From Agromyces humi (GTDB lineage Bacteria > Actinomycetota > Actinomycetes > Actinomycetales > Microbacteriaceae), in contig NZ_WJSP02000013.1 of NCBI RefSeq assembly GCF_009720255.1, positions 1 to 32,167 of the forward strand: a stretch of DNA of 32,167 nt, written 5' to 3'. The translations under genes and the position numbers were made by a program. The stretch's first letter is position 1; every line of letters begins with the position of its first letter. The notes below the pieces were generated by a model, which saw only the letters and a list, made by a program, of their open reading frames with translations, was not told the origin of the DNA and did no database searches. Below are positions 3,599-26,943 of this stretch, in pieces.

Positions 3599-4453
3599 AT
3601 GACGGAGTTGTTCTCTGTCTTGGGAAGGATCGGCGGATTCAGCGCGCGCTCCAATCTTGCTTGGCGAGGGTTCGCAAGCATCGACTATGACTTGGTCTCG
3701 TCCCTCCAGCGCGTCCCAGGCCTCTCCGACGAGGACTCGCTCCGGGACGTGGAGCGTTCCAGCTTGACCGCGGCGCGGGAGTGGGGACTCGGCTTCGGTC
3801 ACGGCGGATGGGCGAGCGACCTTCAGTTGCTCGCTGATCTTCAGCACTATGGAACCAGCACGAGACTGATGGATGTCACGAGCAACCCCATGACAGCTCT
3901 GTGGTTCGCATGCCAGCAACCGGCGTCGGCGGGACTATCACGTAGTGGGCTTCTGCTGGCGATAAACACAACAGACTGGCCCCGCTATGGTCGTGCGCAG
4001 CCTTCGGGACGGCCGAGCGCCATCGACAATCCGATCGGCTGGGAACTGGAGCGCGCCCTCGGATCGGGCTCCCCGTTCGTCGTCGAGTCGCTCTCCCCAA
4101 ACGACCGATTGCGAGCGCAGGAGGGCTTCTTCATCGCTGATCGTGTGCCCGCCGTCGATGAGCAGGCCGGGCCGTTCAAGAGCCTCCGAATCGCCTACCC
4201 ACGCATCGACTCACACGACCTCAAGTCCGCGTTGCAGAATCCCGATGGCTCAGCGTCACCGACGATTCGGGATCGGCTTCCGTTCGTCGCGGTTAAGGTC
4301 AATCAAGGGCTGAAGCGTCGTGCGCTCAAGATTCTTCAGAATTCATACAACAGAACTCATAGGGTCCTCTTTCCCGACTTCACCGGGTTTCGGGAGTACA
4401 GCGCCCACGCAACGCCGCGCGAGCGGTCCTCCGAGGTCAATGAGACTCGATGA
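3599..4453 (+). CDS. FRG-domain protein
   Basis: The 284-aa protein carries the FRG domain. WRG at residues 22-24 corresponds to the F/W-R-G that names the domain, and LLADLQHYGTSTRLMDVTSN (about 78-97) followed by ALWFACQ is its best conserved stretch. Near the C-terminus, HRVLFPDFTGF is the usual closing motif. FRG proteins are frequent in phage-defence and toxin settings, but their biochemical activity is not settled. The ATG at 3599 lacks a clear ribosome site, and an in-frame stop lies at 3578, so the start is uncertain. The gene is the first intact one inside the left island border, faces toward the Dpd cluster and is separated from it by about 900 bp, so it may be independent cargo and not a Dpd component. 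Confidence 0.82.
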   Translation: MTELFSVLGRIGGFSARSNLAWRGFASIDYDLVSSLQRVPGLSDEDSLRDVERSSLTAAREWGLGFGHGGWASDLQLLADLQHYGTSTRLMDVTSNPMTALWFACQQPASAGLSRSGLLLAINTTDWPRYGRAQPSGRPSAIDNPIGWELERALGSGSPFVVESLSPNDRLRAQEGFFIADRVPAVDEQAGPFKSLRIAYPRIDSHDLKSALQNPDGSASPTIRDRLPFVAVKVNQGLKRRALKILQNSYNRTHRVLFPDFTGFREYSAHATPRERSSEVNETR

Positions 4454-5377: not shown

Positions 5378-5968
5378 CTACTGGACCAACTTGCCGACGG
5401 GAGTTGTGTCTCGGTGAGTCCGTCGCACTCGGCGCATGCGGACAAGCGCCTTCACGCCGACGAAGATCGCGAGCGGCACAATCGTCGCCCAGACGATCTT
5501 GCCGACCATCTGCCCCACAATGCTCTCGAACGTCAGCGGGAATCCAGCGATCCAGAGGAAGAGCACCGTGTCGACCGGCGCTGAGACGCAGTTCGAGATG
5601 AGCGCAGCCCGAACGAAACCGCGCGGACGAGCCCAAAGGAACACGAGCATGTCTGCGACTTCAGCGACGAGGAATGCAACCGCAGAGGCCAACGCGAGCG
5701 CGGGCGTCGCGAGGAACCAAGAAAGCGCCAACCCAACTGCCATCCCGAGGAGCACGCCGCGGACCCCAAGGTACGTGTGGACGAAGTCGCGCGACAGGAG
5801 CGCGAATCCGGCTGCGTACGTTCCTGCAGAAACGACCAGCCCGAACCCGACCGGAACCAGACCGAAGTTCGCGGAGAGGATGTTCGCGGCAACGATGGCG
5901 CCAATGTAGACGGCGAGCGCGATCGATCCACGGATTAAATTGCGACGGTCATAGACCTTGGCGTTCAA
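5378..5968 (-). CDS. Queuosine-precursor-type transporter (VUT/YhhQ-like)
   Basis: A 196-aa integral membrane protein with about six hydrophobic segments: IALAVYIGAIVAANIL near the N-terminus, then a segment around FGLVVSAGTYAAGFALL, then VLLGMAVGLALSWFLA, ALASAVAFLVAEVADMLVF, a short helix with VDTVLFLWIAGF, and IVWATIVPLAIFVGVKALV. A charged R/H-rich tail ends it. The pattern AANI...GT...F...D and the EVADMLVF stretch match the VUT family, whose YhhQ members import preQ0 and preQ1. TTG 5968 is chosen because AGGAG stands 5 nt upstream; an ATG at 6001 inside folE2 is the alternative. It is the last gene of the preQ0 operon, 11 nt after the folE2 stop, which supports salvage of a 7-deazaguanine base. 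Substrate and direction are inferred. Confidence 0.8.
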   Translation of the reverse strand: MNAKVYDRRNLIRGSIALAVYIGAIVAANILSANFGLVPVGFGLVVSAGTYAAGFALLSRDFVHTYLGVRGVLLGMAVGLALSWFLATPALALASAVAFLVAEVADMLVFLWARPRGFVRAALISNCVSAPVDTVLFLWIAGFPLTFESIVGQMVGKIVWATIVPLAIFVGVKALVRMRRVRRTHRDTTPVGKLVQ

Positions 5969-5979
5969 AACTGCTCCTG

Positions 5980-6786
5980 CTAGTTGGCGCTGGGCGCCCA
6001 TGAGAGTGATGCGACTGCATCATGGCTGTGAATGCTTTCGAAGTTGCGAACGTGGATCGAGTGCCGAAGAGCGCGGGCGCGGCATGTCGAGGAGAGATCT
6101 CGAACCATATCCTCAACGAAGGCGGGGTGGTCGTACGCCTCCATCGTGATCCAACGCTCGTCCGGGCGTTTGATGACGGGGTAAATGGGGCACGAGCCAA
6201 CTTGACGTGCGAGCGAGAACATCTCGCTCAGAGTGAGCGGATACAGGTCATCGGTGTCGCCCGTAACCGACAGCGTCACGGCACTTCGCTGATTGTGTGC
6301 GCCGTACTCACTAATCGCTTTGCTGCATGGGCAAAGACTCGTGACGTGCGTTGTCAAGGTCGTCGTCATCGTCGCTGACTCTGATGAGCCTTCAATGGAG
6401 AATCGGACATCGGCGGCCTGCCAGGCCGCCACATCCGAGACAGGCGCTCGAACCTCGAACGAAACTGCAAGATCGAACGAGATACGAGCTTCCGTTGCGT
6501 CGAGGCGATCGGCTGCGGTCGCGATCAACGCGTGGGCGCGCCGAGGATCGAACTCACGCATCTGGACGGCGAGCGTCTCGACCATGCGACTCATGTGTGT
6601 ACCGCGCCGGTCTGGCGCCAAGGGGACGACGAAGTCCGCAGAGCCCACGCCGGCGGCATCCACTTCGCCATCAATGACGCGGATGGGAGTGCGTACACCC
6701 GCGACTCCTACCGCATCCAGTTCAATCCCGCGTCGGTCAACTTCGTCCTGGATGTCGGGCAGCGCATGGGCCAACTCGGGGAGCAT
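5980..6786 (-). CDS. folE2: GTP cyclohydrolase I, FolE2 type
   Basis: The enzyme opens the GTP imidazole ring and yields 7,8-dihydroneopterin triphosphate, the first step toward preQ0. The 268-aa protein has the FolE2 signatures: RGTHMSR (about residues 61-67), and SLCPCSKAISEYGAHNQRS with Cys152, Cys154 and His164, the metal site and catalytic region of the type IB enzymes. ATG 6786 is preferred because GGAGG ends 6 nt before it; an adjacent ATG at 6789 would leave only 3 nt. The start overlaps the queD stop, so the two are coupled. FolE2 enzymes can use metals other than zinc, unlike the common FolE, which would let the cassette work when zinc is scarce. A host folE for folate is presumably elsewhere. 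Confidence 0.92.
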   Translation of the reverse strand: MLPELAHALPDIQDEVDRRGIELDAVGVAGVRTPIRVIDGEVDAAGVGSADFVVPLAPDRRGTHMSRMVETLAVQMREFDPRRAHALIATAADRLDATEARISFDLAVSFEVRAPVSDVAAWQAADVRFSIEGSSESATMTTTLTTHVTSLCPCSKAISEYGAHNQRSAVTLSVTGDTDDLYPLTLSEMFSLARQVGSCPIYPVIKRPDERWITMEAYDHPAFVEDMVRDLSSTCRARALRHSIHVRNFESIHSHDAVASLSWAPSAN

Positions 6787-7169
6787 CATTGGCCTCCGTT
6801 CGATTCGCCGCGGTACGTACACCGTGAACGCGGGGTTTCGCTCACAACGATCGCGTGGAGGAGTGGGAGTGCGACGCTGAGCCTGTCCCACATCCAACGC
6901 GCGAGGTGCTCGCTGGTCGGATTCTCGAGGCCTTCGATGTCGTTCAAGAGGCGATGATCGAGCTGTGCAGAGATCGGTGCAAACGCAGTTGAGAGGTCAC
7001 CGAAGTCCTGGACGAAGCCGCTCTCGTCATCAACGGCGCCGCGCACATGGACCTCGACCGTGTAGGAGTGCCCGTGCATCCGCCCGCACTTGTGCCCGTC
7101 GGGGACATTCGGGAGAAAGTGGGCGGACTCGAACGAGAACTCGCGGGAAAGTTCGGCGTAGAAGGTCAT
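6786..7169 (-). CDS. queD: 6-carboxy-5,6,7,8-tetrahydropterin synthase
   Basis: QueD converts dihydroneopterin triphosphate to 6-carboxytetrahydropterin in the preQ0 pathway. The 127-aa product has FSFESAHFLP with zinc ligand His17, then KCGRMHGHSY with catalytic Cys28 and zinc ligands His32 and His34 (the CxxxHGH signature), and later FGDLSTAF and QLDHRLLND with the Asp-His pair. Size fits the family. ATG 7169 forms an ATGA overlap with the queE stop; the open frame extends 14 codons further but into queE. The order queC-queE-queD-folE2 with one- to four-base overlaps shows a tightly coupled four-step pathway. Confidence 0.93.
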   Translation of the reverse strand: MTFYAELSREFSFESAHFLPNVPDGHKCGRMHGHSYTVEVHVRGAVDDESGFVQDFGDLSTAFAPISAQLDHRLLNDIEGLENPTSEHLARWMWDRLSVALPLLHAIVVSETPRSRCTYRGESNGGQ

Positions 7170-7801
7170 GCGATTCCCAAGTATTTGTGTGTCTGGAGGC
7201 TGAGCTGCCACGTCGGGTGGTTGAGACAGTATTCGACTGCGAGCGCGGTGTTTACGCTGATGTCGGGGCCGTCCATGGGCTGAACTCGATAAGTTCCGAA
7301 GTCGAGATGCTCGAAGCTCGACGGATCCACGCCCTTCTGCGGATAGACGAACTTGAGTTCGTCCCCACGCGTAACCACGAGATCGGCCCCGATTTTCGGA
7401 CTAACGCAAAGCCAGTCGACACCCGCCGGAGGAATCCGCGTGCCGTTCGTCTCAACGGCTACGTAGAAACCCCGTCGATGGAGCGCCTCTATGGCTGGCT
7501 CGTCAAGTTGAAGCAGCGGCTCGCCGCCTGTGCAGACGACCATCCGATTGGATGCCCAACCGACCGGCCAGGCGGCTTCAACTGCGTCAGCGAGATCATC
7601 GGCCGTGGCGAACTTGCCTCCACCCGGACCGTCCGTTCCGACAAAGTCCGTGTCGCAGAACTGGCAGATAGCGCGAGGGCGATCGCGCTCATGCCCGGTC
7701 CAGAGGTTGCAGAGGCTGAACCGGCAGAAGACCGCTGGACGACCGGCGTGCGTTCCCTCCCCCTGGAGGGTGTAGAAGATCTCCTTGACCTTGTACGACA
7801 T
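7166..7801 (-). CDS. queE: 7-carboxy-7-deazaguanine synthase (radical SAM)
   Basis: QueE rearranges carboxytetrahydropterin to 7-carboxy-7-deazaguanine (CDG) using SAM and a 4Fe-4S cluster. The 211-aa protein begins with the family pattern IFYTLQGEGTHAGRPAVF. The cluster cysteines are Cys31, Cys46 and Cys49, a CX14CX2C arrangement (C-NLWTG...ICQFCDTDF) known from one QueE subgroup and different from the common radical-SAM CX3CX2C. VVCTGGEPLLQLD is the SAM-binding GGEP motif, and VETNGT follows. ATG 7801 shares one base with the queC stop. An upstream extension of 29 codons is open but lies within queC and lacks family likeness. Confidence 0.94.
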   Translation of the reverse strand: MSYKVKEIFYTLQGEGTHAGRPAVFCRFSLCNLWTGHERDRPRAICQFCDTDFVGTDGPGGGKFATADDLADAVEAAWPVGWASNRMVVCTGGEPLLQLDEPAIEALHRRGFYVAVETNGTRIPPAGVDWLCVSPKIGADLVVTRGDELKFVYPQKGVDPSSFEHLDFGTYRVQPMDGPDISVNTALAVEYCLNHPTWQLSLQTHKYLGIA

Positions 7802-8496
7802 CAGGCAGCTTGATAGGAAACGGGGTCGGAGAACCCAGCCTCCTGAAATCCACGGATCCGCAGCAGACACGAGTCGCAGTGTCCGCACGAACGGCCCTCG
7901 TCATCGGGGTCATAGCATGACAGCGTCAGCGAGTAGTCGACTCCGAGCTCTGTGCCGGTCTGGACGATGTCGGCCTTCGTCATAGAGATCAGCGGAGTGT
8001 GGATCTTCAGTCGTGCACCCTCGACGCCCGCGCGCGTGGCAAGGTTCGCCATCGTCTCGTACGCTTCGATGTACTCGGGCCGGCAGTCGGGGTAGCCCGA
8101 GTAGTCGAGCGCGTTGACACCGATGAACACATCAGTTGCTCCGACCACTTCCGCGAACGCAAGAGCGAAAGAGAGGAAGATGGTGTTCCGAGCGGGGACG
8201 TAGGTGACTGGAATTTCCTCCGCGGAAAGGTCTCCAGCATTGTCGTGCTTGGGAACCTCTGTCTCCGACGTGAGTGCCGAACCACCAAAAGTCCTCAGGT
8301 CGATGTCACAGACGACGTGCTGTGCAACACCCTGAGCCTTCGCCACACGCTTCGCTGCTTCAAGTTCCACGACGTGACGCTGGCCGTAACGGAAGCTCAG
8401 CGCATACGGCTCGTAACCCTGGTTCTTAGCCAGTGCGAGAACGGTGGTTGAATCGAGGCCTCCACTGAGGAGAACAATTGCCTTGCGCTTGGACAC
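7801..8496 (-). CDS. queC: 7-cyano-7-deazaguanine (preQ0) synthase
   Basis: QueC uses ATP and ammonia to turn CDG into preQ0, the base that DpdA would insert in DNA. The 231-aa product starts [15 protein letters not shown], the PP-loop ATP-pyrophosphatase motif (residues 11-16), followed by [27 protein letters not shown] and [17 protein letters not shown] are family signatures. The C-terminal zinc site is Cys194, Cys204, Cys207 and Cys210 ([18 protein letters not shown]). GTG 8496 is chosen because GGAGG lies 5 nt upstream; earlier codons have no ribosome site. It is the first gene of the preQ0 operon and faces away from the modification operon across a 99-bp control region. Confidence 0.95.
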
Positions 8497-8595
8497 GTGA
8501 GCCTCCGCTCTTTCTGACGTTTGCACGCACCGCAATGATAGATCGAAACTGTCGCGTACAGTAGCATCGAATCACGCGCAGTTAGGTGGTGTTAC
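8497..8595. promoter_or_regulatory. Divergent promoter region of the preQ0 and modification operons, with inverted repeat
   Basis: These 99 bp separate queC (leftward) from the candidate dpdC (rightward) and must hold both promoters unless transcription enters from elsewhere. The inverted repeat ACTGT (8548-8552) and ACAGT (8558-8562), with a 5-bp spacer, sits about midway and could be an operator for a shared regulator. TACAGT at 8557-8562 could serve as a rightward -10 element and TATCAT on the minus strand (8541-8536) as a leftward one, but neither has a convincing -35. Ribosome sites lie at both ends (GGAGG for queC, AGGTGG for dpdC). Assignment of individual elements is tentative. Confidence 0.4.
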
Positions 8596-9492
8596 GTGTT
8601 GGAGAAACTCACGATCGTCGTGACCTGCACCGACCGTAAGTCACTTGTAGTTCCCGAGCAGCGGATGCTCCGCTCGCTGCCTAACTCAGTCTCCAAAGCG
8701 TCCGTGTGGACCCAGCGAATCGAGTCCGCTGATACGGTCACCCTCCTGAGGAACCTCTACCAAGGCGACGCCTGGGCTCAACTTCCGCGCCTCGAGGACG
8801 CCTCGCGCGCCATCGGATTCGAGCCAACGACATACGTTGCGTCGGCTGGACTGGGGTTGCGCCCGGTTTCGACCCCAGGACCAGCCTACGGCGCAACATT
8901 CACTCCGAATTCGCCGGACTCCGTGCCAGGTTCCGCGATACAACAACGAGCGTGGTGGGACCACTTGAACAGATGGAACGGATCCGGGGGGAATCTTCCC
9001 GACGGCATTCCAACGCTCTTCGTCTTGTCTCGTCGCTATTCCGACGTGTTGGCGCCGCTCGTCGCGAAGACCGCCGTCGCCAGCCCGGTACTCGTCATCG
9101 GGGGGTCGGAGGCAATCGCACCCTCGCTGCGATTGCCAGCCGACGCCAAACTCCGTTCCGCACTAGGGGGCACACTCGGTGCGCTCAACATGCGTACGGC
9201 TGTCGCTTGGATGGAGAGACTAACCTCCACCGTCATCGATTCCACTCGCCATCGAGAGTTGTGGCACAACTGGGCGACGCGAGCCAGCCGACATGAGCGC
9301 CACGAGAGAATTCCGCTTGCGGACCACGAGGTCCTTGAAGCGGTCCGTCGGATCCGCACTCAGGAACCGACCGTAAGCAAGACTCGCGCGCTCCGGTCAC
9401 TACGCGAGAACGGCTATGCGTGCGAGCAGAAGCGTTTCGGGCAACTGTTTGAAGCGTTCGAGGAGGAGCATCGTGGCACAAGAGTGGATTGA
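8596..9492 (+). CDS. dpdC: Candidate DpdC, final step of 7-deazaguanine DNA modification
   Basis: In the Salmonella system DpdC converts preQ0 in DNA to 7-amido-7-deazaguanine (dADG). I assign this 298-aa protein to that role from position, first in the operon with dpdB and dpdA, and because all other Dpd parts are accounted for. Visible features are LTIVVTCTDRKS at residues 5-16, TYVASAGLGL at 79-88, and PAYGATFTPN at 96-105. The SAGLGL step loosely recalls the SxxGL turn of YaaA-like and archaeosine-synthase-associated domains, but this is a weak likeness. The C-terminal 60 residues are charged and look like a separate helical DNA-binding region (DHEVLEAVRRIRTQE, then KTRALRSLRENGYACEQKR). 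GTG 8596 follows AGGTGG by 6 nt. It overlaps the next gene by 20 bp. It could instead be an unrelated accessory protein. Confidence 0.6.
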   Translation: MLEKLTIVVTCTDRKSLVVPEQRMLRSLPNSVSKASVWTQRIESADTVTLLRNLYQGDAWAQLPRLEDASRAIGFEPTTYVASAGLGLRPVSTPGPAYGATFTPNSPDSVPGSAIQQRAWWDHLNRWNGSGGNLPDGIPTLFVLSRRYSDVLAPLVAKTAVASPVLVIGGSEAIAPSLRLPADAKLRSALGGTLGALNMRTAVAWMERLTSTVIDSTRHRELWHNWATRASRHERHERIPLADHEVLEAVRRIRTQEPTVSKTRALRSLRENGYACEQKRFGQLFEAFEEEHRGTRVD

Positions 9493-10603
9493 ACGGCGGG
9501 CTCTTCGTGTGCTCCAGGGCGAGATCCCGCTTTACCTCTTCACGCTTGCGGCGGAAGAAGTGGATCAAGTCGCCGACGTGGCCAGGATCTCACGTGATCA
9601 GGCCGGCAAGCTCATTGGCTACCAACGGCCGGAGAAGCGCAAGCATGTGAAACAGATCCAGGACTACCTGGATAGTGAAGACGTGCTCTTCCCCAACGGG
9701 CTCATTCTTGCCCTGCCTAGGGAAGTCCGGTTCAAGTCCAGCCGAGGTCCCGGTGTAAGCGATGGCCTCGCGACGGCGGGCACATTGGAGATTCCTGTCG
9801 TCAACGGTGAGGGAGGGCCGCGGCCCGCTTGGATCGTGGACGGCCAGCAGCGCAGTCTCGCTCTCGCCCGGACCCGCAACCGGCGTCTCCCCGTTCCCGT
9901 CGCGGGCTTCGTTTCGGATGACCTGGAAGTGCAACGCGAGCAGTTCCTCAGGGTGAACACCGTGCAACCGCTGCCCGTTGGGCTGGTCACTGAACTGCTG
10001 CCCGAGATCGCGCGCGTGCCGTCAACGCGAATGTCGACGCGACAACTGCCGTCCGCCCTCGTTGACATGCTCAACTCCGACCCGGACTCCCCCTTCTTTG
10101 GGCTAATCCGACGCGCGTCGACGGCAACCGAAGCCCGCCCGAGTGCGATCGTGACTGACACCGGACTGGTCGAGGCGTTGCGCGAGTCTGTTGAGTCTCC
10201 ATCAGGGGTGTTGTTCCCCTATAGGAACATCGCGGCCGGCACCACGGATACCGAAGGAATCCGACGAACTCTGCTGGTCTATTGGAACGCTGTTCGCGAG
10301 ACGTTCCCGTCCGCGTGGGGCAAGAACCCGACGGAGTCACGTCTCATGGGTGGCGTCGGCATTCGTGCGATGGGACGCCTGATGGAACGCGTCATGGCGC
10401 ACGTGGATGTCGACTCTGCGGATGCCGCCGCGCAAGCGCGCCTCGAAGTCGGCCGCATTGCCTCTCAATGCCACTGGACAAGCGGCACCTGGACCGATCT
10501 GGGGCTCCCGTGGAATGAGCTGCAGAACACTCCTCGGCACATCAGTGCGCTCTCCAACTTCCTCGCTCGCGCCTATCTTGCAGAGAGAGCGGCCGCGCGT
10601 TGA
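9473..10603 (+). CDS. dpdB: DpdB, first copy (DGQHR-domain protein)
   Basis: DpdB works with DpdA in putting preQ0 into DNA; it belongs to the ParB/DndB-like DGQHR-domain proteins. This 376-aa protein has GYQRPEK at residues 49-55 and the signature as DGQQRS at 123-128, followed by FLRVNTVQPLP, matching the F-x-x-x-N-x-x-x-P-L segment of the domain. The C-terminal half contains SRLMGGVGIRAM and ends in WNELQNTPRHIS. GTG 9473 is chosen because AGGAGG stands 6 nt upstream. The start lies inside the end of the preceding gene and the stop overlaps the dpdA start (TTGA), giving full coupling. A second copy of equal length follows dpdA. Confidence 0.85.
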   Translation: MAQEWIERRALRVLQGEIPLYLFTLAAEEVDQVADVARISRDQAGKLIGYQRPEKRKHVKQIQDYLDSEDVLFPNGLILALPREVRFKSSRGPGVSDGLATAGTLEIPVVNGEGGPRPAWIVDGQQRSLALARTRNRRLPVPVAGFVSDDLEVQREQFLRVNTVQPLPVGLVTELLPEIARVPSTRMSTRQLPSALVDMLNSDPDSPFFGLIRRASTATEARPSAIVTDTGLVEALRESVESPSGVLFPYRNIAAGTTDTEGIRRTLLVYWNAVRETFPSAWGKNPTESRLMGGVGIRAMGRLMERVMAHVDVDSADAAAQARLEVGRIASQCHWTSGTWTDLGLPWNELQNTPRHISALSNFLARAYLAERAAAR

Positions 10604-11835
10604 AGTTCTACTTCCCTGACAGCCAGGACCTCGTGAGTCCGACGTATGACTTCGAGCATGATGAATACCCGCCGACGCGCGTTCGGCAGCGTGACGATCG
10701 CTACGCTCATGAAGTTCTGGACTCTTCTCCGTACCACGGCTTCCTCGTCAGCAAGGCGATCGTCGATGGTAGCGTGTCAGGCTCTGGGAAGTACACCTCG
10801 TCGCAGAGAGCCCGTCTCTACCGCATGGGTGCCAGACGCTTCTTCCGCCTCCCGGATGAGATCGCGACTCTCGGCGACAACGGCGCGTTCAATTACGTGG
10901 CCGAGGAGGTGCCGCCGGTTACTGTCGATGACACTCTCGATTTCTACGAAGAGTGCGGGTTCGACGCGGGAGTCAGTGTCGACCACATCATCTTCGGGTA
11001 CGACGGCACGGCCGGACTGGACAACGCGGACCCCGCGTGGATCCGACGCCGAGAACTAACGCTGGAACTCGCCGCTGACTTCCGTCGGCGAGTCGAGGAA
11101 CGAGGCTCGCGGATCGAACCTGTCGGCGCCGCGCAGGGCTGGAGTCCCGCGAGCTACGCCGACAGCGTCGCGCGACTCCAGGAGTTTGGTTACACCCGCG
11201 TCGCGCTCGGAGGCATGGTTCCGCTGAGGACTAAAGACGTGCTCTCATGCCTTCATGAGATCGACAAGGTGCGGCACCCGTCGACCGAGCTGCATTTGCT
11301 CGGCCTGACCCGTGTAGATGCGATGGACGAGTTCTCCCAACTCGGCGTGACGAGCTTCGACAGCACCTCGCCCTTTCGGCAAGCGTTCATGGACGACCGG
11401 AACAATTTCCACACACCGAACGGTGCTTACGTTGCGTTACGCGTGCCGCAGGTCGATGGCAACCCGACTCTTCGCCGAGCGATCCTCGCAGGCACAGTCT
11501 CCCAGCAGGATGCCATCGCAGCGGAACGCCGAACGCTGCGAGCGCTGCGGGCGCTCGACGGCTCCCGTGTCGGAATCGACGACGCGCTTGATGCACTCGG
11601 GCACTACGAAACGGTCATGGGCGCAAAGAAGAGCTACCTCCCGGCGTACGAGCAAACTCTCGTCGCCGCACCGTGGGCCGACTGCCGGTGCAGCCTGTGC
11701 CGTGAGCACGGTGTCGAGATCGCAATCTTCCGAGGCACCGAGCGGAACAAGCGCCGCGGCTTCCACAACTTGACAGTTCTCGCCAGCAAGGTATCTGCCC
11801 TCACCGACCGGAGTTCTTCGCCCACTTATGTCTAA
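10600..11835 (+). CDS. dpdA: DpdA, DNA-guanine transglycosylase (TGT paralogue)
   Basis: DpdA is the base-exchange enzyme of the Dpd system, replacing guanine in DNA with preQ0. The 411-aa product shows a tRNA-guanine transglycosylase fold: GDNGAFNYV (residues 92-100) matches the D-S-G-G-F region with the catalytic Asp93, VALGGMVPL (201-209) matches the G-G-L loop, and LLGLTRVD followed by SFDSTSP (252-258) matches the nucleophile Asp254 region. The zinc site is Cys362, Cys364, Cys367 and probably His389 (DCRCSLCREH...GFHN). The pairing with two dpdB genes and the preQ0 operon separates it from tRNA enzymes. The start is TTG 10600, overlapping the dpdB stop; no strong ribosome site is seen, so it depends on coupling. 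The 3' end overlaps the second dpdB by 8 bp. Confidence 0.92.
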   Translation: MKFYFPDSQDLVSPTYDFEHDEYPPTRVRQRDDRYAHEVLDSSPYHGFLVSKAIVDGSVSGSGKYTSSQRARLYRMGARRFFRLPDEIATLGDNGAFNYVAEEVPPVTVDDTLDFYEECGFDAGVSVDHIIFGYDGTAGLDNADPAWIRRRELTLELAADFRRRVEERGSRIEPVGAAQGWSPASYADSVARLQEFGYTRVALGGMVPLRTKDVLSCLHEIDKVRHPSTELHLLGLTRVDAMDEFSQLGVTSFDSTSPFRQAFMDDRNNFHTPNGAYVALRVPQVDGNPTLRRAILAGTVSQQDAIAAERRTLRALRALDGSRVGIDDALDALGHYETVMGAKKSYLPAYEQTLVAAPWADCRCSLCREHGVEIAIFRGTERNKRRGFHNLTVLASKVSALTDRSSSPTYV

Positions 11836-12958
11836 GCTACCAATCGTTCTCCCTGCGATCCGGATTCGTCAGGGCAATCAGTTCATCTTCGCGTTCGGCA
11901 TCGACGGAAAGCGCGTACACGAGTTTGCCGCGGTAAGCCGCGTGCACCGCACCGATCAGACGCTGGCGGGGTATCAGCGACCCGAAGTGCTGTCGCACAT
12001 TCGCGCGATTCGTCGCTACCTTGAGTCGGATGCGGCGCTCCTCCCCAACGCGATCGTGCTCGCATTCGACGACCGGGTCGAATTCAAGCCGTTAGATGCC
12101 GGGGCATCCGCGGCCGCGTACTCAACCGTTGGTCACTTGGTCATTCCGGTCGATCCGGAGTTGGCCGACGATGAAAAGCCCGCATGGCTGGTAGACGGCC
12201 AGCAGCGTAGCGCGGCAATTCGCGACGCTGACGTTGATGAGTTTCCCGTGGCAGCTGTCGGTTTCATCGCACGGGATGAAGCCGAGCAACGATCGCAGTT
12301 CATCCTCGTGAACAACACGAAGCCACTTCCGAAGGGTTTGATTCACGAACTCCTTCCGACGACCTCGGCGGAACTACCCGCCGCGTACGCGCGTCGCCGA
12401 CTCCCGGCAACCGTCTTAAACCTCCTGAACTTCGGAACTGATGGAGGCGAAGGCCCGTTCACCGGACGGATCAGCACTCCCACCATGGCAAACGGGTTTA
12501 TCCGCGACAACAGCGTGCTCAAGATGATCGAGAACAGCCTGTACGAGGGGGCGCTCTATCAGTACCGCGATCCCGAGGATGGCACCGGCGACATCCCGTC
12601 GATCCTGACGCACCTCAACTATTTCTGGGGTGCAGTTGAGCGAGTGTTCCCGCTGGAATGGCGCCTACCCCCAACAAAGTCGCGCCTCACCCACGGTGCC
12701 GGAATACAGTCTCTCGGGTACGTCATGGATTCGCTCACGGAAGGCGTCCCCGCCGCGGAGCTTCCCGGCATCGGAATTGAGGACGTTCTACTCGAACTGC
12801 GCGATCACTGCGCTTGGACGGAGGGGAACTGGAACTTCGGTGACGACCAGGTTCGCCGTTGGAACGGCATCCAGAACACGCCAAACGACGTCCGCCTGCT
12901 GACGAGTCATCTACTGCGGGTGGTACGAACCTCCGGGGCCCTGGCTACGCAACGCTGA
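11828..12958 (+). CDS. dpdB: DpdB, second copy (DGQHR-domain protein)
   Basis: A full-length paralogue of the dpdB upstream of dpdA, again 376 aa. It has GYQRPE at residues 48-53, DGQQRS at 123-128 (the same position as in the first copy), FILVNNTKPLPKG, SRLTHGAGIQSLG and WNGIQNTPNDVR. Conservation of the catalytic-type motifs in both copies suggests both are functional, possibly as different subunits of one complex with DpdA. The sequences have diverged widely outside the motifs, so this is not a recent duplication. ATG 11828 overlaps the end of dpdA by 8 bp. The gene converges on dpdD with only 19 bp between the stops and no hairpin there. Confidence 0.87.
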   Translation: MSKLPIVLPAIRIRQGNQFIFAFGIDGKRVHEFAAVSRVHRTDQTLAGYQRPEVLSHIRAIRRYLESDAALLPNAIVLAFDDRVEFKPLDAGASAAAYSTVGHLVIPVDPELADDEKPAWLVDGQQRSAAIRDADVDEFPVAAVGFIARDEAEQRSQFILVNNTKPLPKGLIHELLPTTSAELPAAYARRRLPATVLNLLNFGTDGGEGPFTGRISTPTMANGFIRDNSVLKMIENSLYEGALYQYRDPEDGTGDIPSILTHLNYFWGAVERVFPLEWRLPPTKSRLTHGAGIQSLGYVMDSLTEGVPAAELPGIGIEDVLLELRDHCAWTEGNWNFGDDQVRRWNGIQNTPNDVRLLTSHLLRVVRTSGALATQR

Positions 12959-12977: not shown

Positions 12978-14963
12978 TCACCCGGTCAACTCTGCGATTC
13001 CGGCGGTCACCGCTCTCAGCATCGAGGCCGACCCAGCACCGTCTGGATAGGAGATCAGGGCCACACCGGCGTTGTCGGCGATGCATCCGGTGGCGGCGTG
13101 GGCGGCCCTCCGCGTCGCAACAACGATGAGATCCGAATTTCTCGCATGCTGCTTGAGCATCGGACTCCCGTCCTTGTCCGAGGATGTACGAACGATCGTT
13201 CCGGGCCACGACTGTTCGATCGCCTTCTGCACACGCGCAAGCGTTCCCCGATCCAAGCTGTACAGCAGGATGCGCGGAGTGATCGCCGGGACGGCTTCCG
13301 GAAGGGCGCCCTCCTGCTGTGGGGGAACCGACCAATCGAAGTCCAGGCCAACGTCAGACGTCACTAGCCCAGCGAGGCCACGTAACGTGTCGTGCAATCG
13401 GCGCTTCTGTTGGTTCAGTGGCGAGAGCAAGGTCGCGACGAAATCTGAACGTGCTGCTGCGTCGACAGCTGGTCCCAGTGCAACGGTGTCTGCAATGTCA
13501 AGCGCTCGCGATGCCGTCGTGATCGCCACCCACTGATCCGACGAGGCACGAACATCACCGAGGACTTCTCGATACTTCGCGCCGCTGGGGGCGCCCCGGA
13601 GAAAGACGTCAAGCAGGGCGCAGATCACGCCGAGGTCGGCGGGGGCGAATCGCTCAGCGAGCAGGTATCTGCGTAGGAATGCTTCCGCGCTCCTCGGTGC
13701 AGGCCGTTCGATGTCATCCGTTTCAAGGAAGCAGGCGATGCCTGACAACAGATCATCGGTCGCCAGCCAGTCAAGGTCATCGATCGCGTCGGCAAGTTCC
13801 GCATCGACGGTCGAGACCGCTGTCCACGACCCGACCATGTCGAAGTCGATCTGCTCAGGGTTGCCGCGTCCGATTGCTCGGACCCAATCGATCCAAGATT
13901 CGACCGTGTGCGGGTCTGCGGCGTCGGCATGAGCATCTTCGACCACTGAAGCCACGAGACCGCTATCGACTGCGTCATGCTCTGGCTCAACTGCAGGTGG
14001 TTGGTCGTCCTCCTCAAACTGAGCGAGAACGCGACGGACGGCCGTGTCAATCAATTCATTGGGCGCGAACGCGTTTCTGAGTTCGGCGTCGTCTCGAGCG
14101 AGCGAGACCAATCCGCCGAGAGTCGCCGCATCGGGGTCTGCCGATCGCGCGAGCCGCCCGTCGACGAGCATGGCAATGTCGGGCTTTGCCAGGCGGACGC
14201 TTTCGATGGCCCCATCGATGTCGTTCGGGGCGATTGGTCTTGCCAGGTGAACCCGCGCCCACGCGCCGAGGATGCCCTCACGCACAAGCTGCGGCGGTTC
14301 TGCGTACACGAGGGTCGGCAGCGAGCCAAGCGCGAGGAGTTCAGCATCTCTGCCCAACCGTGCCATGCGGCGAATCTGAAGGAACGCCACGTTCTCGTGG
14401 GAAATACCCCCCAGAGTCTCGATTTCATCGAGGATCTGAGCCGAGGTCTCTGCTGCACCGCTGGCGAGTGCCAAATCGAACTCCCGAAGCATCCGACCAA
14501 TCGGCCTCGAAGGGGTTGGGTTTCGAAGCGGCACGTCATTGAGCGATCGGACGAGTCGCGCGAGCGCGGTGTAGGTCGGGCCGGCGGTCCGAGGCTCCGG
14601 GCTCAGGATGAAGGTCGTTCCTTGCCCAACGAGATCGAGCACTGCGGCTTCGACTGAATCCTGCTGGTTCAGGCGTGCAACGCGTCCATCGAACGGTGTC
14701 CAGTGGGTGGCCGTGGCGGCATCAATCAACGCTCTGACTCGACCAGCGTGTGCGGTGTCCCAGCAAATGACGTAGTAGCGCGCGGCTGACCAGGAGGCTT
14801 CTCGCCTCGGAAGAATGAGCGGGCACTCGCCTCGCTTTGTAAGCGCTGTGAGGAACGGCTTCAGATTCGCCGCGACATTGCCGCTTGGGTCTTGGCCCGG
14901 CCAAGTGACATTCGGCTCGGAGAAGAAGCGAGTGATGAACTCATCGTCGGGGAACGAGTTCAT
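12978..14963 (-). CDS. dpdD: DpdD, restriction-associated protein of unknown activity
   Basis: The 661-aa product is last in the long minus-strand operon. The N-terminal region (to about residue 180) and the acidic middle part contain no catalytic motif I recognise. The C-terminal 53 residues (609-661) include NSDLIVVATRRAAHAATGCI and a YPDGAGSASML loop, a Rossmann-like ending of a type seen in several defence proteins. Identity rests on this ending, size and position in a cluster where all other Dpd members are found. ATG 14963 makes an ATGA overlap with the dpdK stop; a TTG six codons upstream (14981) is the alternative. In the Salmonella cluster the genes outside dpdABC are linked to restriction of unmodified DNA; the role of DpdD itself is not known to me. 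Confidence 0.72.
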   Translation of the reverse strand: MNSFPDDEFITRFFSEPNVTWPGQDPSGNVAANLKPFLTALTKRGECPLILPRREASWSAARYYVICWDTAHAGRVRALIDAATATHWTPFDGRVARLNQQDSVEAAVLDLVGQGTTFILSPEPRTAGPTYTALARLVRSLNDVPLRNPTPSRPIGRMLREFDLALASGAAETSAQILDEIETLGGISHENVAFLQIRRMARLGRDAELLALGSLPTLVYAEPPQLVREGILGAWARVHLARPIAPNDIDGAIESVRLAKPDIAMLVDGRLARSADPDAATLGGLVSLARDDAELRNAFAPNELIDTAVRRVLAQFEEDDQPPAVEPEHDAVDSGLVASVVEDAHADAADPHTVESWIDWVRAIGRGNPEQIDFDMVGSWTAVSTVDAELADAIDDLDWLATDDLLSGIACFLETDDIERPAPRSAEAFLRRYLLAERFAPADLGVICALLDVFLRGAPSGAKYREVLGDVRASSDQWVAITTASRALDIADTVALGPAVDAAARSDFVATLLSPLNQQKRRLHDTLRGLAGLVTSDVGLDFDWSVPPQQEGALPEAVPAITPRILLYSLDRGTLARVQKAIEQSWPGTIVRTSSDKDGSPMLKQHARNSDLIVVATRRAAHAATGCIADNAGVALISYPDGAGSASMLRAVTAGIAELTG

Positions 14964-15481
14964 GCCGATCCGCCAATCCAACGAGTGCGCAGTTCAAGCC
15001 GTTGCCTAGCAGCCTCGGCCTGATCTACCTCGAACTCGAGACTCTCCTCGTTCCGCTGAACGCCATACCAGGTGAAGTTCATCGAACCCTTCAATACCCA
15101 CGACCAGCCGACAATCATCTTTTCGTGCAGGTCAGCGCTCGAGTAGATGTGCAGCGAGTCTGCGCCACTCGCCCGCTGCAGACGATCAACGAACAGTTGG
15201 TTGTGATCTTCTTCTCGAAGTGCAACATGCAACTGTGTTCCGCGCCTGGTGAGCGCGCCCAACGCCTCACTGAGGGTCATCTGTGAACGAGGCTCGTTCC
15301 CCATCACCGAATCAAACTGCCGATCCGCGTTGTCCACCACGGGGATATCAGTCACCCACCCGGAGACTAGCCACAGTTCCTCGCTTGGCCAGCAGAGTTC
15401 GGAGACGATCGCGGCCGTGAGCACGTCGCTGATCGCGAGGCCATTTCGTGGTCGTGTCCGAACCATTCTTCTTCCGCTCAC
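14960..15481 (-). CDS. dpdK: DpdK, phospholipase-D-like nuclease
   Basis: A 173-aa protein with a single PLD (HKD) motif: ADLHEKMIVGWSWVLKGSMN, with His119 and Lys121 of the HxK pair and Gly132-Ser133-x-Asn135 completing the site. One motif per chain means the active site would form in a dimer, as in BfiI- and Nuc-type nucleases. It is therefore the best candidate in the window for the DNA-cutting subunit. GTG 15481 is chosen because GGAGG stands 7 nt upstream and it overlaps the dpdJ stop (GTGA); a longer open frame to 15694 is antisense-like translation of dpdJ codons in another frame. The stop overlaps dpdD. Confidence 0.86.
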   Translation of the reverse strand: MSGRRMVRTRPRNGLAISDVLTAAIVSELCWPSEELWLVSGWVTDIPVVDNADRQFDSVMGNEPRSQMTLSEALGALTRRGTQLHVALREEDHNQLFVDRLQRASGADSLHIYSSADLHEKMIVGWSWVLKGSMNFTWYGVQRNEESLEFEVDQAEAARQRLELRTRWIGGSA

Positions 15482-19866: not shown

Positions 19867-20543
19867 GACAGCGACAGGTACAACTGATTGCGCAGGGTCT
19901 CATCCGTCCTCAGCAGTTCGAGTTCTTCCTCACTGAGATCGGACAGACGGATCCGGCCTTGAACGAATCGGGACAGGATCGCGTCGACGCCTGCACTCTC
20001 GACTTCTTCAAGATCTTCCTTGACCCGTTGCAAGACTGCCTGAAACTCGGTCATTGCACCCAAGGTCGGGGCCTTGCTTGCAAGTTTCTCCAAGTTCGTT
20101 ACCCGGGACTCGGTGGTGCGGCGATCAAACCCGAGTCTTGGGATTAGCGCGACAGGCAGGCTGGAGACCTGGGCCTGTGCCCAGGCGGTCCAGGCCTGCG
20201 TGTCCGTCATTGTCAGCGCGCCACTCGTTCTCTCCACCCTGGCAACTCTCACGTTGATGTACTGCCATGTTGGGCGTCCGATCCGGGAGACCTGGTCACG
20301 TATCTCCCGAGGCGCCGTCATCAGATCGGGCAGGTCCTCCACCGGGACGCCAATGCTTCCAAGACGCCGGTGGACATCGAGACCCTGCTTCAGTTTCCCA
20401 AGTTCAATGCTCAATTTCTCGAGTTGCGTTTGTAGTCGCCGCTGTTCCTGCGAATCCGTCTCAGACTCCCGCTTTGCCCGGGCGAGCGCTGCCAACCGCC
20501 GCGCATTCTCCGCGAGAGTCATGGCTGTCGAGTGGTCACTCAT
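19863..20543 (-). CDS. dpdI: DpdI, coiled-coil protein
   Basis: A 226-aa soluble, highly charged protein. A coiled coil is clear at about residues 32-60 (QEQRRLQTQLEKLSIELGKL), with heptad-like leucines, and a second helical region is near VLQRVKEDLEEVES. No catalytic motif is visible. The assignment as DpdI is by its place between dpdH and dpdJ and by size. It probably bridges or regulates other components of the restriction complex, an inference from the coiled coil only. ATG 20543 overlaps the dpdH stop by 8 bp, and the stop overlaps the dpdJ start as ATGA. Confidence 0.68.
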   Translation of the reverse strand: MSDHSTAMTLAENARRLAALARAKRESETDSQEQRRLQTQLEKLSIELGKLKQGLDVHRRLGSIGVPVEDLPDLMTAPREIRDQVSRIGRPTWQYINVRVARVERTSGALTMTDTQAWTAWAQAQVSSLPVALIPRLGFDRRTTESRVTNLEKLASKAPTLGAMTEFQAVLQRVKEDLEEVESAGVDAILSRFVQGRIRLSDLSEEELELLRTDETLRNQLYLSLS

Positions 20544-24393: not shown

Positions 24394-26943
24394 TCAGAGT
24401 TCCTTCAGTAGGGCGCGGGCCGAGATCGCGTCGTGTGTATCGCGTCGCGGCCAACCTGGACGATCGGGGTTAGGTGTGTCCTTAAGCCCCACGATGTACG
24501 TCACAAGGCCCAACCTATGGCGTTCAATGACATCGTCCGGAATTCTGGCTTCACTTAGGACGATAGCGACGGGCCCCGAGTAGGTATGTGCGAGCGGCGC
24601 AACCGAACTGGGGTCGTCGAGGATCACCGGGGTGTGCGCAGCCGCGCGTTGGAGTCGAACACCTGCCGATGGATTCAAGCCAGCGAACACGCACACTTCA
24701 CGTTGCACCATTCGGAGCAGCAGCGGATGGAGGTCTTCATCGACCTCATGCCAAATGAACAACGATGGGCTACCGCCACGCCACCTAGCAAGCGGATCTC
24801 GTGGTGATCTCGGTTCCGGAACGCTCGGAACCGGCTCGGGCGGTGTCGGGGGCGCTGAAGATGGATTGCGACGGCACGATGGACAGCCCCGACATGACGG
24901 CTGAGTGACGAGTATGCCTCCGCTCACCGCCACCCGATAATGTCTTGCGATACTTCGGCCGACACAGTTCCGAGCCTTGGCAAGTTCCATGGACGACATG
25001 AGCGCGTGCCGCTGGGCTTCCCGCACCTCAGAGCGGACCCGGCCCATGGCGGTGATCCAGCCGCTCCGGCTCAGATATTCGCCATTCCTTAGTTCGAACT
25101 CGATATAGTCTTCGACCTCGTCGAAGAACTTGGCACGCGATGTCGCGAGTTCTTCGTCCGTCATGCTCGGCTTTGGGTTCCATTGAGGTACACGCAAGCC
25201 AATGATGCCCGCCTGGGACATCAGGGTAAGAGTTCGCACGTTCCATTGCTTGCTGCGCCCGAAGCCCTTATCCAGGTGCGCTGGAAGTGCGCTCTTGCGA
25301 ACGCGGTAGCGCAGTTCGCTTAGGAGTTCGCCACGCTGGAGAAGTTCCTGCCATCGATTCCACCCCAACTCGTCACCGATCATCGTGATTTCACTCAATC
25401 GTTCAGCGGTCTGGCGATCTCCTGGACCAATCGAGAGATACGCGAGTGAAGGTCTGCCATCGCGTCCGGATCGCCCCACCTCCTGGTAATAGCGGTCGAT
25501 GGTTTCCGGCAGGCAGGCGTGAAGGACGGTGCGCACGTTGGGCATGTCAAGCCCGAGTCCAAACGCGGACGTGCCCACAACAATGTCGTACGCCGTTGGT
25601 GTGCCGCCAACCCCGCGCCATTGTTCCATCACCGTTCGGCGTTGATCATCCGAGGATTTCCCAGTGACGGACCCCACCCGCCTGAAGCCAGCCTCTCGTA
25701 AGCGTGCTACCCAGGCATTTGCGTCGTCGACCTTGGTGACGTAAAGGATGAGCGGTCTCGGAAGGCAGCTAGCGGCTTTGAGCACCGCTGCCTGTCGAGC
25801 ACCCTCATCGTCGTGCGAATCGATGAAGTAGGCCGGCTCCGCACGCAATTCGGACCCCCACACTACGTCCGCTTGGGTATCGCCGACTGAAAAGAGATCG
25901 ATGAGTAAGTCGACCGGCCGTTGCGCAAGAGTTGCGCTGAGTAGGAGGATGGATGGTTTGCGTCCGTCGGGGGCGTTGATGTGGGCGTCGCGGATCAAGC
26001 CGGGCATCGTCTGAAATTCCGGTCGGAAGTCAGTCCCCCACTGATCGACAAGGTGAGCCTCGTCTATTACGATCTGCTGAAGGAGACCTGCTTGGGCGCA
26101 AGCGAGGACCGAGGGCGCGAGACCTGACACAAACGCCTCGGGAGATGTGTAGAGCAGCCTCTGGCTACCAGACCTCATCGCCTCGCGGAGTTGCGCCTTC
26201 GTGTCTGGGTCGAGCGATCCGACGTATGCGAATCTGCCCACCGGGCTGAGTTGGATGCCCCTGTCTTGTGCCATCTGGTGCGTTCGCCGCTCCATGTCGA
26301 GGGCGAGAACCACAGTCGGGACGACGATGACCGTTACGCCGCGGGTAGACAGGAGCACCTTGCTCCACGCCACGGCGGTCTTGCCCCGACCGGTGGGCAG
26401 CGCAATGACAACGGATCCTTCGTCATTGAGCACAGCCGCCCGAGCTGCCTGTCGCTGCGGCTCACCCCGATACGTGGGGTAGTGGTGTGCTTCCTTCCAA
26501 AACGGGTCAGCGTCGAGGAGATGAGGCTCCTCAGGATCCACGTCCCGATACACGGCTCGAACCTCGCTTCGAGCCTCGTCGCGCCCGGTATCTCCACCCT
26601 CCGGGGTAGCGGGAGGCTCCCAGTCCAAGGCTTGAATCGATAGTCGGCCATCCGATAGCCGAGCTGCCTGACACTCCAGGCCCTCCCACTCCTCAACGGT
26701 CGGCCAGAGTGGCGTGCTCGGGGTGACAAGCGACGGGTTGCCGCCGTAGGTCTCCCGTGCCGTGAGGAGGACCTGTCTGATCAGTGCAGCAACGTCCCGC
26801 CGCCCTGCCGCCTGTGTCGTCAGCCCGCTGAGTGCGTCCAGAAGACGCCGACACGCGTCAGAGATTACACGGCCGGATTCCACGCCAAGCTCCGGCCACC
26901 GGTCTAGTACGGCCTGCGCTGTCCAGATGTCATCCCTTGACAT
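24394..26943 (-). CDS. dpdF: DpdF, RecQ-like helicase
   Basis: The 849-aa protein is a RecQ-type SF2 helicase. Walker A is LPTGRGKT (182-189), motif II is IDEAHLVDQWGTDFRPEF (293-310), whose W-G-x-D-F-R-P-E ending is characteristic of RecQ, SATLA is motif III, and QEVGRSGRDG (487-496) is motif VI. Beyond the helicase core are Cys660, Cys684, Cys687 and Cys690 (the last three within SCRGCPSC), matching the zinc or iron-sulfur element after the RecQ core. The N-terminal 150 residues are specific to this protein. ATG 26943 overlaps the end of dpdE by 14 bp and has a G-rich ribosome site. DNA unwinding at unmodified sites is the likely task, inferred from the family and cluster. Confidence 0.88.
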   Translation of the reverse strand: MSRDDIWTAQAVLDRWPELGVESGRVISDACRRLLDALSGLTTQAAGRRDVAALIRQVLLTARETYGGNPSLVTPSTPLWPTVEEWEGLECQAARLSDGRLSIQALDWEPPATPEGGDTGRDEARSEVRAVYRDVDPEEPHLLDADPFWKEAHHYPTYRGEPQRQAARAAVLNDEGSVVIALPTGRGKTAVAWSKVLLSTRGVTVIVVPTVVLALDMERRTHQMAQDRGIQLSPVGRFAYVGSLDPDTKAQLREAMRSGSQRLLYTSPEAFVSGLAPSVLACAQAGLLQQIVIDEAHLVDQWGTDFRPEFQTMPGLIRDAHINAPDGRKPSILLLSATLAQRPVDLLIDLFSVGDTQADVVWGSELRAEPAYFIDSHDDEGARQAAVLKAASCLPRPLILYVTKVDDANAWVARLREAGFRRVGSVTGKSSDDQRRTVMEQWRGVGGTPTAYDIVVGTSAFGLGLDMPNVRTVLHACLPETIDRYYQEVGRSGRDGRPSLAYLSIGPGDRQTAERLSEITMIGDELGWNRWQELLQRGELLSELRYRVRKSALPAHLDKGFGRSKQWNVRTLTLMSQAGIIGLRVPQWNPKPSMTDEELATSRAKFFDEVEDYIEFELRNGEYLSRSGWITAMGRVRSEVREAQRHALMSSMELAKARNCVGRSIARHYRVAVSGGILVTQPSCRGCPSCRRNPSSAPPTPPEPVPSVPEPRSPRDPLARWRGGSPSLFIWHEVDEDLHPLLLRMVQREVCVFAGLNPSAGVRLQRAAAHTPVILDDPSSVAPLAHTYSGPVAIVLSEARIPDDVIERHRLGLVTYIVGLKDTPNPDRPGWPRRDTHDAISARALLKEL

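Follow-up and report, generated by a model that had tools for sequence, protein, structure and literature searches.

Why does a cluster for 7-deazaguanine DNA modification carry two genes for DpdB, one on either side of dpdA? The question is raised by a stretch of 32,167 nucleotides from Agromyces humi (assembly GCF_009720255.1, contig NZ_WJSP02000013.1, positions 1 to 32,167 of the forward strand), referred to below as the window, in which model scores identify a dpd (7-deazaguanine DNA modification) island. The island runs from the genes for FolE2, queE and queC on the minus strand, through dpdC, dpdB1, dpdA and dpdB2 on the plus strand, to dpdD, dpdK, dpdJ, dpdH, a dpdG-like gene, dpdF and dpdE on the minus strand. 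Both copies, the upstream B1 and the downstream B2, belong to the DpdB family, they fall into two groups, their motifs are intact, and each is co-inherited separately from the other. With moderate confidence we regard them as ancient, non-interchangeable paralogues under purifying selection, of which B2 would be cognate to DpdA and B1 tied to DpdC and the side of preQ0 (7-cyano-7-deazaguanine). The central genes of the window are:

8596..9492, plus strand: dpdC, 298 aa (amino acids); PADLOC DpdC model PDLC02817, 306 bits
9473..10603, plus strand: dpdB1, the upstream copy, 376 aa from GTG; NF041060, 393 bits
10600..11835, plus strand: dpdA, DNA-guanine transglycosylase, 411 aa; NF041059, 589 bits (cut-off 200)
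11828..12958, plus strand: dpdB2, the downstream copy, 376 aa; NF041060, 500 bits

Two Intact DpdB Proteins

A preliminary description of this DNA, made from the sequence alone, had placed two DpdB copies of 376 residues on either side of dpdA, and the coordinates together with the NF041060 and NF041059 scores confirm it, provided that B1 is read from the GTG at 9473, which is preceded by a GAGGAG stretch; the longest open reading frame (ORF) starts at the ATG at 9416 and would give 395 aa. The equal length of the two products is uninformative in itself. The genes are tightly packed: B1 overlaps dpdA by four bases, dpdA starting with the TTG inside the TTGA that holds the dpdB1 stop, and the start of B2 lies over the end of dpdA by eight bases. 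The motif DGQQRS was correctly located at residues 123-128 of both translations; GYQRPE lies at 48-53, as described, in B2, and one residue further on, at 49-54, in B1.

Both proteins exceed the 300-bit cut-off of the NCBIfam DpdB model NF041060, and they are the two DpdB matches in the window's assembly (812 contigs, 96% complete), where a third was not matched. Their global alignment has 131 identities over 366 aligned positions (36%). Chance similarity was rejected, the local score of 504 being far above those of 200 shuffles (37 +/- 5, maximum 57). Both also pass the cut-off of 29 of the Pfam DndB family PF14072 (B1 with 52 bits, B2 with 91 bits). With the DndB-specific NCBIfam model DGQHR_dnd_1 they reach 49 and 38 bits, respectively, against a cut-off of 450; the window proteins hardly match the PADLOC DndB models, to which B1 gave no match at E 0.05.

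The predicted models of B1 and B2 have pLDDT (predicted local distance difference test) values of 82.8 and 87.6. The top structural matches for both are ParB, Noc, KorB, PadC and sulfiredoxin; the best ParB row has Z 8.4, a root-mean-square deviation (rmsd) of 3.1 and 96 aligned residues for B1, and Z 7.7, rmsd 3.1 and 95 residues for B2. A ParB/sulfiredoxin-like N-terminal domain, of a nucleotide-binding type, followed by a helical C-terminal part is thus predicted for both proteins, with Z values near 8 being modest. Foldseek alone found no match with E below 0.001 for either model, and a sequence search of the PDB with B2 returned nothing up to E 1.

Two Deep Groups of DpdB

The two copies separate by position. 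In a tree of 177 DpdB rows (one fragment having been omitted from 178), all 76 upstream copies lie on one side of a single branch with support 94, and 90 downstream copies together with three orphan DpdBs lie on the other. In two smaller trees, with rows hand-chosen from the 178, the upstream group was recovered again: 33 of 33 in a mixture-model tree of 82 rows (Shimodaira-Hasegawa-like approximate likelihood ratio test, SH-aLRT, 100) and all 24 in a carefully built 61-row tree (100/100). Five gammaproteobacterial loci (L025, L104, L105, L108 and L110) have a single DpdB each, which is of the downstream kind. On the evidence of these trees, the upstream and downstream DpdBs are ancient positional paralogues that form two deep groups. 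A recent tandem duplication was rejected, given 36% identity and two groups extending across phyla.

Mean identity is 0.547 among upstream copies, 0.509 among downstream copies, and 0.357 between the two copies of one locus. Gene conversion between the copies was rejected because upstream-downstream identity never rises above 0.425. DGQQR is invariant in both groups (alignments A2 of 53 rows and A3 of 59 rows); 53 columns hold the same residue at 90% or more in both, and four columns are conserved at 90% or more with a different residue in each, most clearly so at S216 of B1 and T219 of B2. In seven locus pairs the ratio of nonsynonymous to synonymous substitution rates (dN/dS) was 0.00-0.14 for B1 and 0.04-0.11 for B2, where one value could not be computed. 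Both copies are kept by purifying selection, and decay of one of them was rejected, as the motifs are retained in both and dN/dS is low. The view that the copies are old and intact, with upstream and downstream members falling into two groups, is therefore borne out by the 177-, 82- and 61-row trees; by identities, motifs and dN/dS, the two are not each other's closest relatives and neither has decayed.

Several further relatives of DpdB were encountered. In Mycobacteriaceae and Myxococcus a longer DpdB-like protein of 523-536 aa is encoded downstream of B2 on the opposite strand (minus strand; L059:10080-11651, L060, L062 and L099); DGQQR or DGQHR is retained, and the protein of L059 has about 120 residues ahead of its DpdB-like part. 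L109 has a shorter, distant relative at the same place. Acidimicrobiia loci without B1 (L084:4740-5861 and L086) encode a divergent DGQHR protein upstream of dpdC. Additionally, dpdB occurs on plasmid records not listed by the DpdA search (L120, L121 and L122), from Nonomuraea, Euzebya and four Variovorax plasmids; the dpdB of Variovorax sp. SRS16 is followed by a DUF6884 gene and adjoins type I-E genes of clustered regularly interspaced short palindromic repeats (CRISPR).

Distribution of the dpdB-dpdA-dpdB Arrangement

A DpdA over the cut-off is rare in the phylum sample, found in two of 396 genomes, the window's own and G031, whose dpd locus is also of the dpdB-dpdA-dpdB (B-A-B) type. DpdA was also searched in plasmids and in a species-genome collection, in the latter by means of an alignment; there the best 80 of 234 relatives were taken, a sample biased toward close relatives of the query. 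Altogether, 101 loci, including the window, G031 and loci fetched by hit, were scanned with profiles built for this analysis, and 97 of them contain DpdA. Of these 97, 76 have a DpdB on each side of DpdA (74 by script, to which were added L102 and L097, the latter with its downstream copy cut by a contig end), 15 have one on the downstream side only, and six show none in the stretch; in three of these six, DpdA is the long form of cyanobacteria and Paenibacillus. The upstream copy is present in 65 of the 80 genome loci. B-A-B was found in Actinomycetota, Myxococcota, Planctomycetota and Alphaproteobacteria; the layout is not a local oddity of the window.

In 14 of the 15 single-DpdB loci the end of dpdC coincides with, or is close to, the start of dpdA; in the remaining one, L092, queC, queE and dpdC lie downstream of dpdA-dpdB rather than upstream. 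Eight of the nine genomes searched behind single-DpdB loci hold one DpdB over the cut-off; the ninth, G398, holds three, two of which were assigned to its other locus, of the B-A-B type, as the two copies there. Among 5426 E. coli genomes, 161 match a dpdC-dpdA-dpdB query, in one place each, and in the one genome whose annotation was read, that of strain B27, there is a single dpdB.

It is also worth mentioning that one metagenome-assembled genome has both an A-B and a B-A-B dpd locus (L083 and L091). Three DpdA loci (L030, L064 and L117) have no DpdB match in the plasmid record or genome searched; the plasmid records are from Acetobacter and from Methylorubrum extorquens AM1 (dpdC-dpdA only), and the genome is that of Actinomadura sp. 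J1-007. A scan of viral_contigs with DpdA gave no relative.

Separate Histories of the Two Copies

Evolutionary distances were compared across 72 complete loci, and across 64 after removal of the Alphaproteobacteria. In the larger set the correlation is r 0.94 between DpdA and B2, 0.87-0.89 between DpdC and B1, and 0.76-0.77 between B1 and B2, where the partial correlation, with DpdA and DpdC allowed for, falls to 0.10. The partial correlations in the 64 loci are 0.82 for DpdA and B2, 0.70 for DpdC and B1, 0.17 for B1 and DpdA, and 0.02 for B1 and B2. Judged from sequence comparison, then, the history of B2 follows that of DpdA and the history of B1 follows that of DpdC.

The same division appears when each gene is given the tree of another. 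In 56 of the 64 loci (eight near-copies dropped), a foreign tree costs 44-140 units of log-likelihood (lnL) within the pairs DpdC/B1 and DpdA/B2, and 548-1200 across them. Without ten clearly swapped loci (46 loci) the figures are 51-102 within against 147-515 across, and in a subset of 24 loci 16-57 against 125-380; the approximately unbiased (AU) test was run with 10000 replicates for these two reduced sets. Since the cross-pair cost persists after the ten swapped loci are dropped, the data suggest that exchange between the modules happened more than once; a cross-table of groups contains several combinations of B1 and DpdA. In a sitewise scan of the joined alignment, 18 windows in DpdC and B1 favour the B1 tree and 21 in DpdA and B2 favour the DpdA tree, the preference switching at the end of B1. 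The B1 stop lies within an ATGA, GTGA or TTGA able to start dpdA in 67 of the 72 loci. The three junctions are similarly tight, yet the one between B1 and dpdA is the most strongly broken. The distances of dpdD fit neither module (0.15-0.25, 38 loci).

Association of B1 with preQ0 Genes

The presence of queC or queE was tabulated for 85 loci that have B2 and sufficient sequence upstream, leaving out five with less than 4.5 kb before dpdA, L004, and three with the long DpdA; que genes beyond the stretch available at each locus would be missed. Where B1 is present, queC or queE was found in 70 loci and not in two; where B1 is absent, they were found in two and not in 11 (Fisher p 2.7e-10, uncorrected for kinship). 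The association includes the Alphaproteobacteria, in which the que genes are annotated downstream of B2. In the 64 loci queE distances side with DpdC and B1 (0.72-0.73, against 0.39-0.57 for B2 and DpdA); those of queC fit no module (0.33-0.48 with DpdC, B1, DpdA and B2).

Proposed Roles and Alternatives

As to biochemical steps, which we infer, B2 would be the cognate partner of DpdA that powers the exchange of guanine for preQ0 in DNA. It is taken as the insertion nucleoside triphosphatase (NTPase) because the DpdB that occurs singly in Enterobacteria is of this kind and because B2 follows DpdA. Reconstitution of the Salmonella system reportedly gave a DpdB with ATPase activity. An ATPase activity of DpdB that serves preQ0 insertion is described in the accessible part of one report (PMC12839542). 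B1 represents a second subfamily, sharing its history with dpdC and queE and, less clearly, with queC, and would most likely act at another step there: it might pass preQ0-marked DNA to DpdC, license insertion according to preQ0 supply, set a second class of sites, or regulate. A more tentative proposal, which we hold to be somewhat less likely than not, is that B-A-B machines use two dedicated NTPases for two steps, B2 for the base exchange by DpdA and B1 to drive or gate the DpdC step or preQ0 supply, and that they consist of exchangeable modules with their seam at the four-base dpdB1/dpdA overlap.

A number of observations weigh against the reading of B1 and B2 as members of two functional modules. 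Joint inheritance may reflect linkage and not shared function, because dpdC adjoins B1 and dpdA adjoins B2; the sole control is the equally tight B1/dpdA junction, which gives way. A few old exchanges falling at that junction by chance would give the same two-module signal. The AU test rejects foreign trees within the pairs too (p 0.0245 or less in the 56 loci, from 2000 replicates, a number below the program's recommendation). For B1 and DpdA the sitewise scan is in part circular, because their own trees were compared; in its independent part, 8 of 8 DpdC windows favour the B1 tree and 10 of 10 B2 windows the DpdA tree. There are 14 loci with dpdC and without B1, and therefore DpdC cannot always need B1; in these few loci the correlation of dpdC and dpdA distances is 0.89, random sets of 14 B-A-B loci giving a median of 0.78 and a 95th percentile of 0.88. 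Two or three supported independent pairs stand behind the association of B1 with que genes, too few for a test, so that it is a clade-level pattern, to which L091, L102, L101 and L104 are exceptions; moreover, queC tracks B1 no better than it tracks DpdA (0.47 against 0.48). Finally, monophyly of the downstream group with respect to a distant outgroup is missing from the best 61-row tree, yet is not rejected (AU p 0.452).

The preliminary description interpreted the two copies as a heteromeric partner of DpdA or as two target specificities. A heteromer of B1 and B2 serving DpdA would fit the occupation of both sides of dpdA in most of the loci, and the overlapping genes, with B1 stops so often placed in an NTGA able to start dpdA, would fit coordinated synthesis; nevertheless, with DpdA and DpdC allowed for, next to no correlation is left between B1 and B2, combinations of B1 and DpdA have been exchanged, and single-DpdB clusters exist, G398 with its three copies being the one genome of the nine to hold more than one. 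We consider such a heteromer unlikely. What stands of the earlier interpretation is the pair of old, intact paralogues in two groups; an obligate heteromer is not favoured because the histories are separate, B2 following DpdA and B1 following DpdC. It is equally improbable, in our estimate, that B1 and B2 are alternative specificity subunits steering DpdA to different DNA contexts. In favour of this are the intact motifs of two deeply diverged proteins and the resemblance of the models to ParB proteins, some of which bind DNA, but if both compete for a single DpdA they could be expected to track it to the same degree, and B2 does so far more.

A regulatory role for B1 may also be considered, since DndB, a relative in the family, is reported as a transcriptional regulator in the accessible part of PMC4507180: in Salmonella Cerro this protein binds to the promoter of dnd, and without it dndCDE products and modification increase. 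That B1 is likewise a regulator of its cluster instead of a modification subunit would accord with the Pfam DndB scores of both copies and with the association of B1 with supply genes. Little weight is given to it here, as B1 passes the DpdB equivalog cut-off, falls far short of the DndB-specific one, finds no PADLOC DndB match at E 0.05, and shares the invariant motif of B2. Plain redundancy or gene dosage, for which a common family and common motifs might be cited, is by far the least probable explanation, as the two deep groups have remained distinct across phyla, with no gene conversion and with purifying selection on each of them. We retain the reading of two non-interchangeable paralogues, B2 with DpdA and B1 with DpdC.

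Other Genes of the Island

By model scores, the window contains the genes of a Dpd system, both those for modification (dpdA, two dpdB, dpdC) and, from the restriction set dpdD-K, dpdD, E, F, H, J and K. No window gene was recognised as dpdI by the family models, and dpdG only below its cut-off. The DpdA of the window matches PDB 7ui4 (E 8.4e-115); the dpdC product has no match in NCBIfam and none in Pfam. The genes flanking the central four are:

5378..6001, minus strand: queuosine-precursor transporter-like; TIGR00697, 28 bits, below the cut-off of 51
5980..6897, minus strand: GTP cyclohydrolase FolE2; NF010200, 218 bits (cut-off 215)
7166..7888, minus strand: queE; TIGR04508, 340 bits (cut-off 240)
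7801..8535, minus strand: queC, preQ0 synthesis; TIGR00364, 219 bits (cut-off 150)
12978..14981, minus strand: dpdD; NF041061, 553 bits
14960..15694, minus strand: dpdK; NF041068, 174 bits
15478..19866, minus strand: dpdJ; NF041067, 1525 bits
20536..23532, minus strand: dpdH; PADLOC PDLC02891, 1243 bits
23529..24392, minus strand: dpdG-like; NF041064, 61 bits, below the cut-off of 80
24394..26943, minus strand: dpdF; PADLOC PDLC02872, 1080 bits
26930..30238, minus strand: dpdE; NF041062, 1101 bits

The true start of dpdK is probably internal, because the match spans only residues 75-239 of the ORF. Between dpdH and dpdJ, a 226-aa protein without a convincing family match is encoded at 19863-20543 (minus strand), presumably the place where dpdI might be expected. 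An FRG-domain protein is encoded close to the edge of the island (3599-4453, plus strand). Agromyces ramosus (L031) is about 97-99% identical to the window at the DNA level over about 6.0 to 12.4 kb; identity falls within the 3' end of dpdB2 (12400-12958), and the next match, at 17.8-18.8 kb, is 67% identical. This break suggests that the restriction half was exchanged recently.

Comparison with Known Systems

The multiplicity of dpdB is already in print: in the accessible part of a 2025 preprint on GATOR-GC (PMC11888242), dpdB is the dpd gene with the most additional copies (n=801). The dpd islands described there have extra dpdB copies, as the window does, and that part gives no subfamilies, positions or module history. 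It names the Kineococcus radiotolerans cluster as one validated for the modified bases. No other statement on dpdB copy number was encountered in the literature looked at. Neither the two-subfamily split nor the module seam was encountered in the literature searched, whose coverage leaves out most subscription papers. New here are the two deep groups, upstream and downstream, the histories of B2 with DpdA and of B1 with DpdC, and the association of B1 with preQ0 genes; the split also provides a naming rule, dpdB1 for the upstream and dpdB2 for the downstream gene.

The plasmids pSR-1 of Skermanella rosea and that of Agrobacterium vitis CG957 have dpdB-dpdA-dpdB like the window, with both copies annotated as DpdB. 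In both, queE and queD (and, by annotation, queC in A. vitis) lie downstream of B2, whereas the window has queE and queC on the opposite strand, upstream of dpdC. DndB of the phosphorothioate systems has the Pfam DndB family and a DGQHR-type motif in common with the window DpdBs; it is reported as a transcriptional regulator, while the window proteins are far below the DGQHR_dnd_1 cut-off and hardly match the PADLOC DndB models.

The Dpd modification set is described, in the accessible parts of PMC11888242 and PMC12839542, as DpdA, DpdB and DpdC, and a single role is given to DpdB. The enterobacterial system, dpdC-dpdA-dpdB, is built from the same gene families as the window, and the window dpdB2 groups with its dpdB (L025, L108 and L110). 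E. coli strain B27 has a gene in the place of dpdC, then dpdA, one dpdB and dpdE-H. Against this layout with one dpdB, in a comparison that rests on E. coli and not on the DpdB of Salmonella, the window has an extra DpdB between dpdC and dpdA. If many clusters carry two non-equivalent DpdBs, the known role in base exchange may be half of the DpdB story, and the enterobacterial model may be a reduced form of the system.

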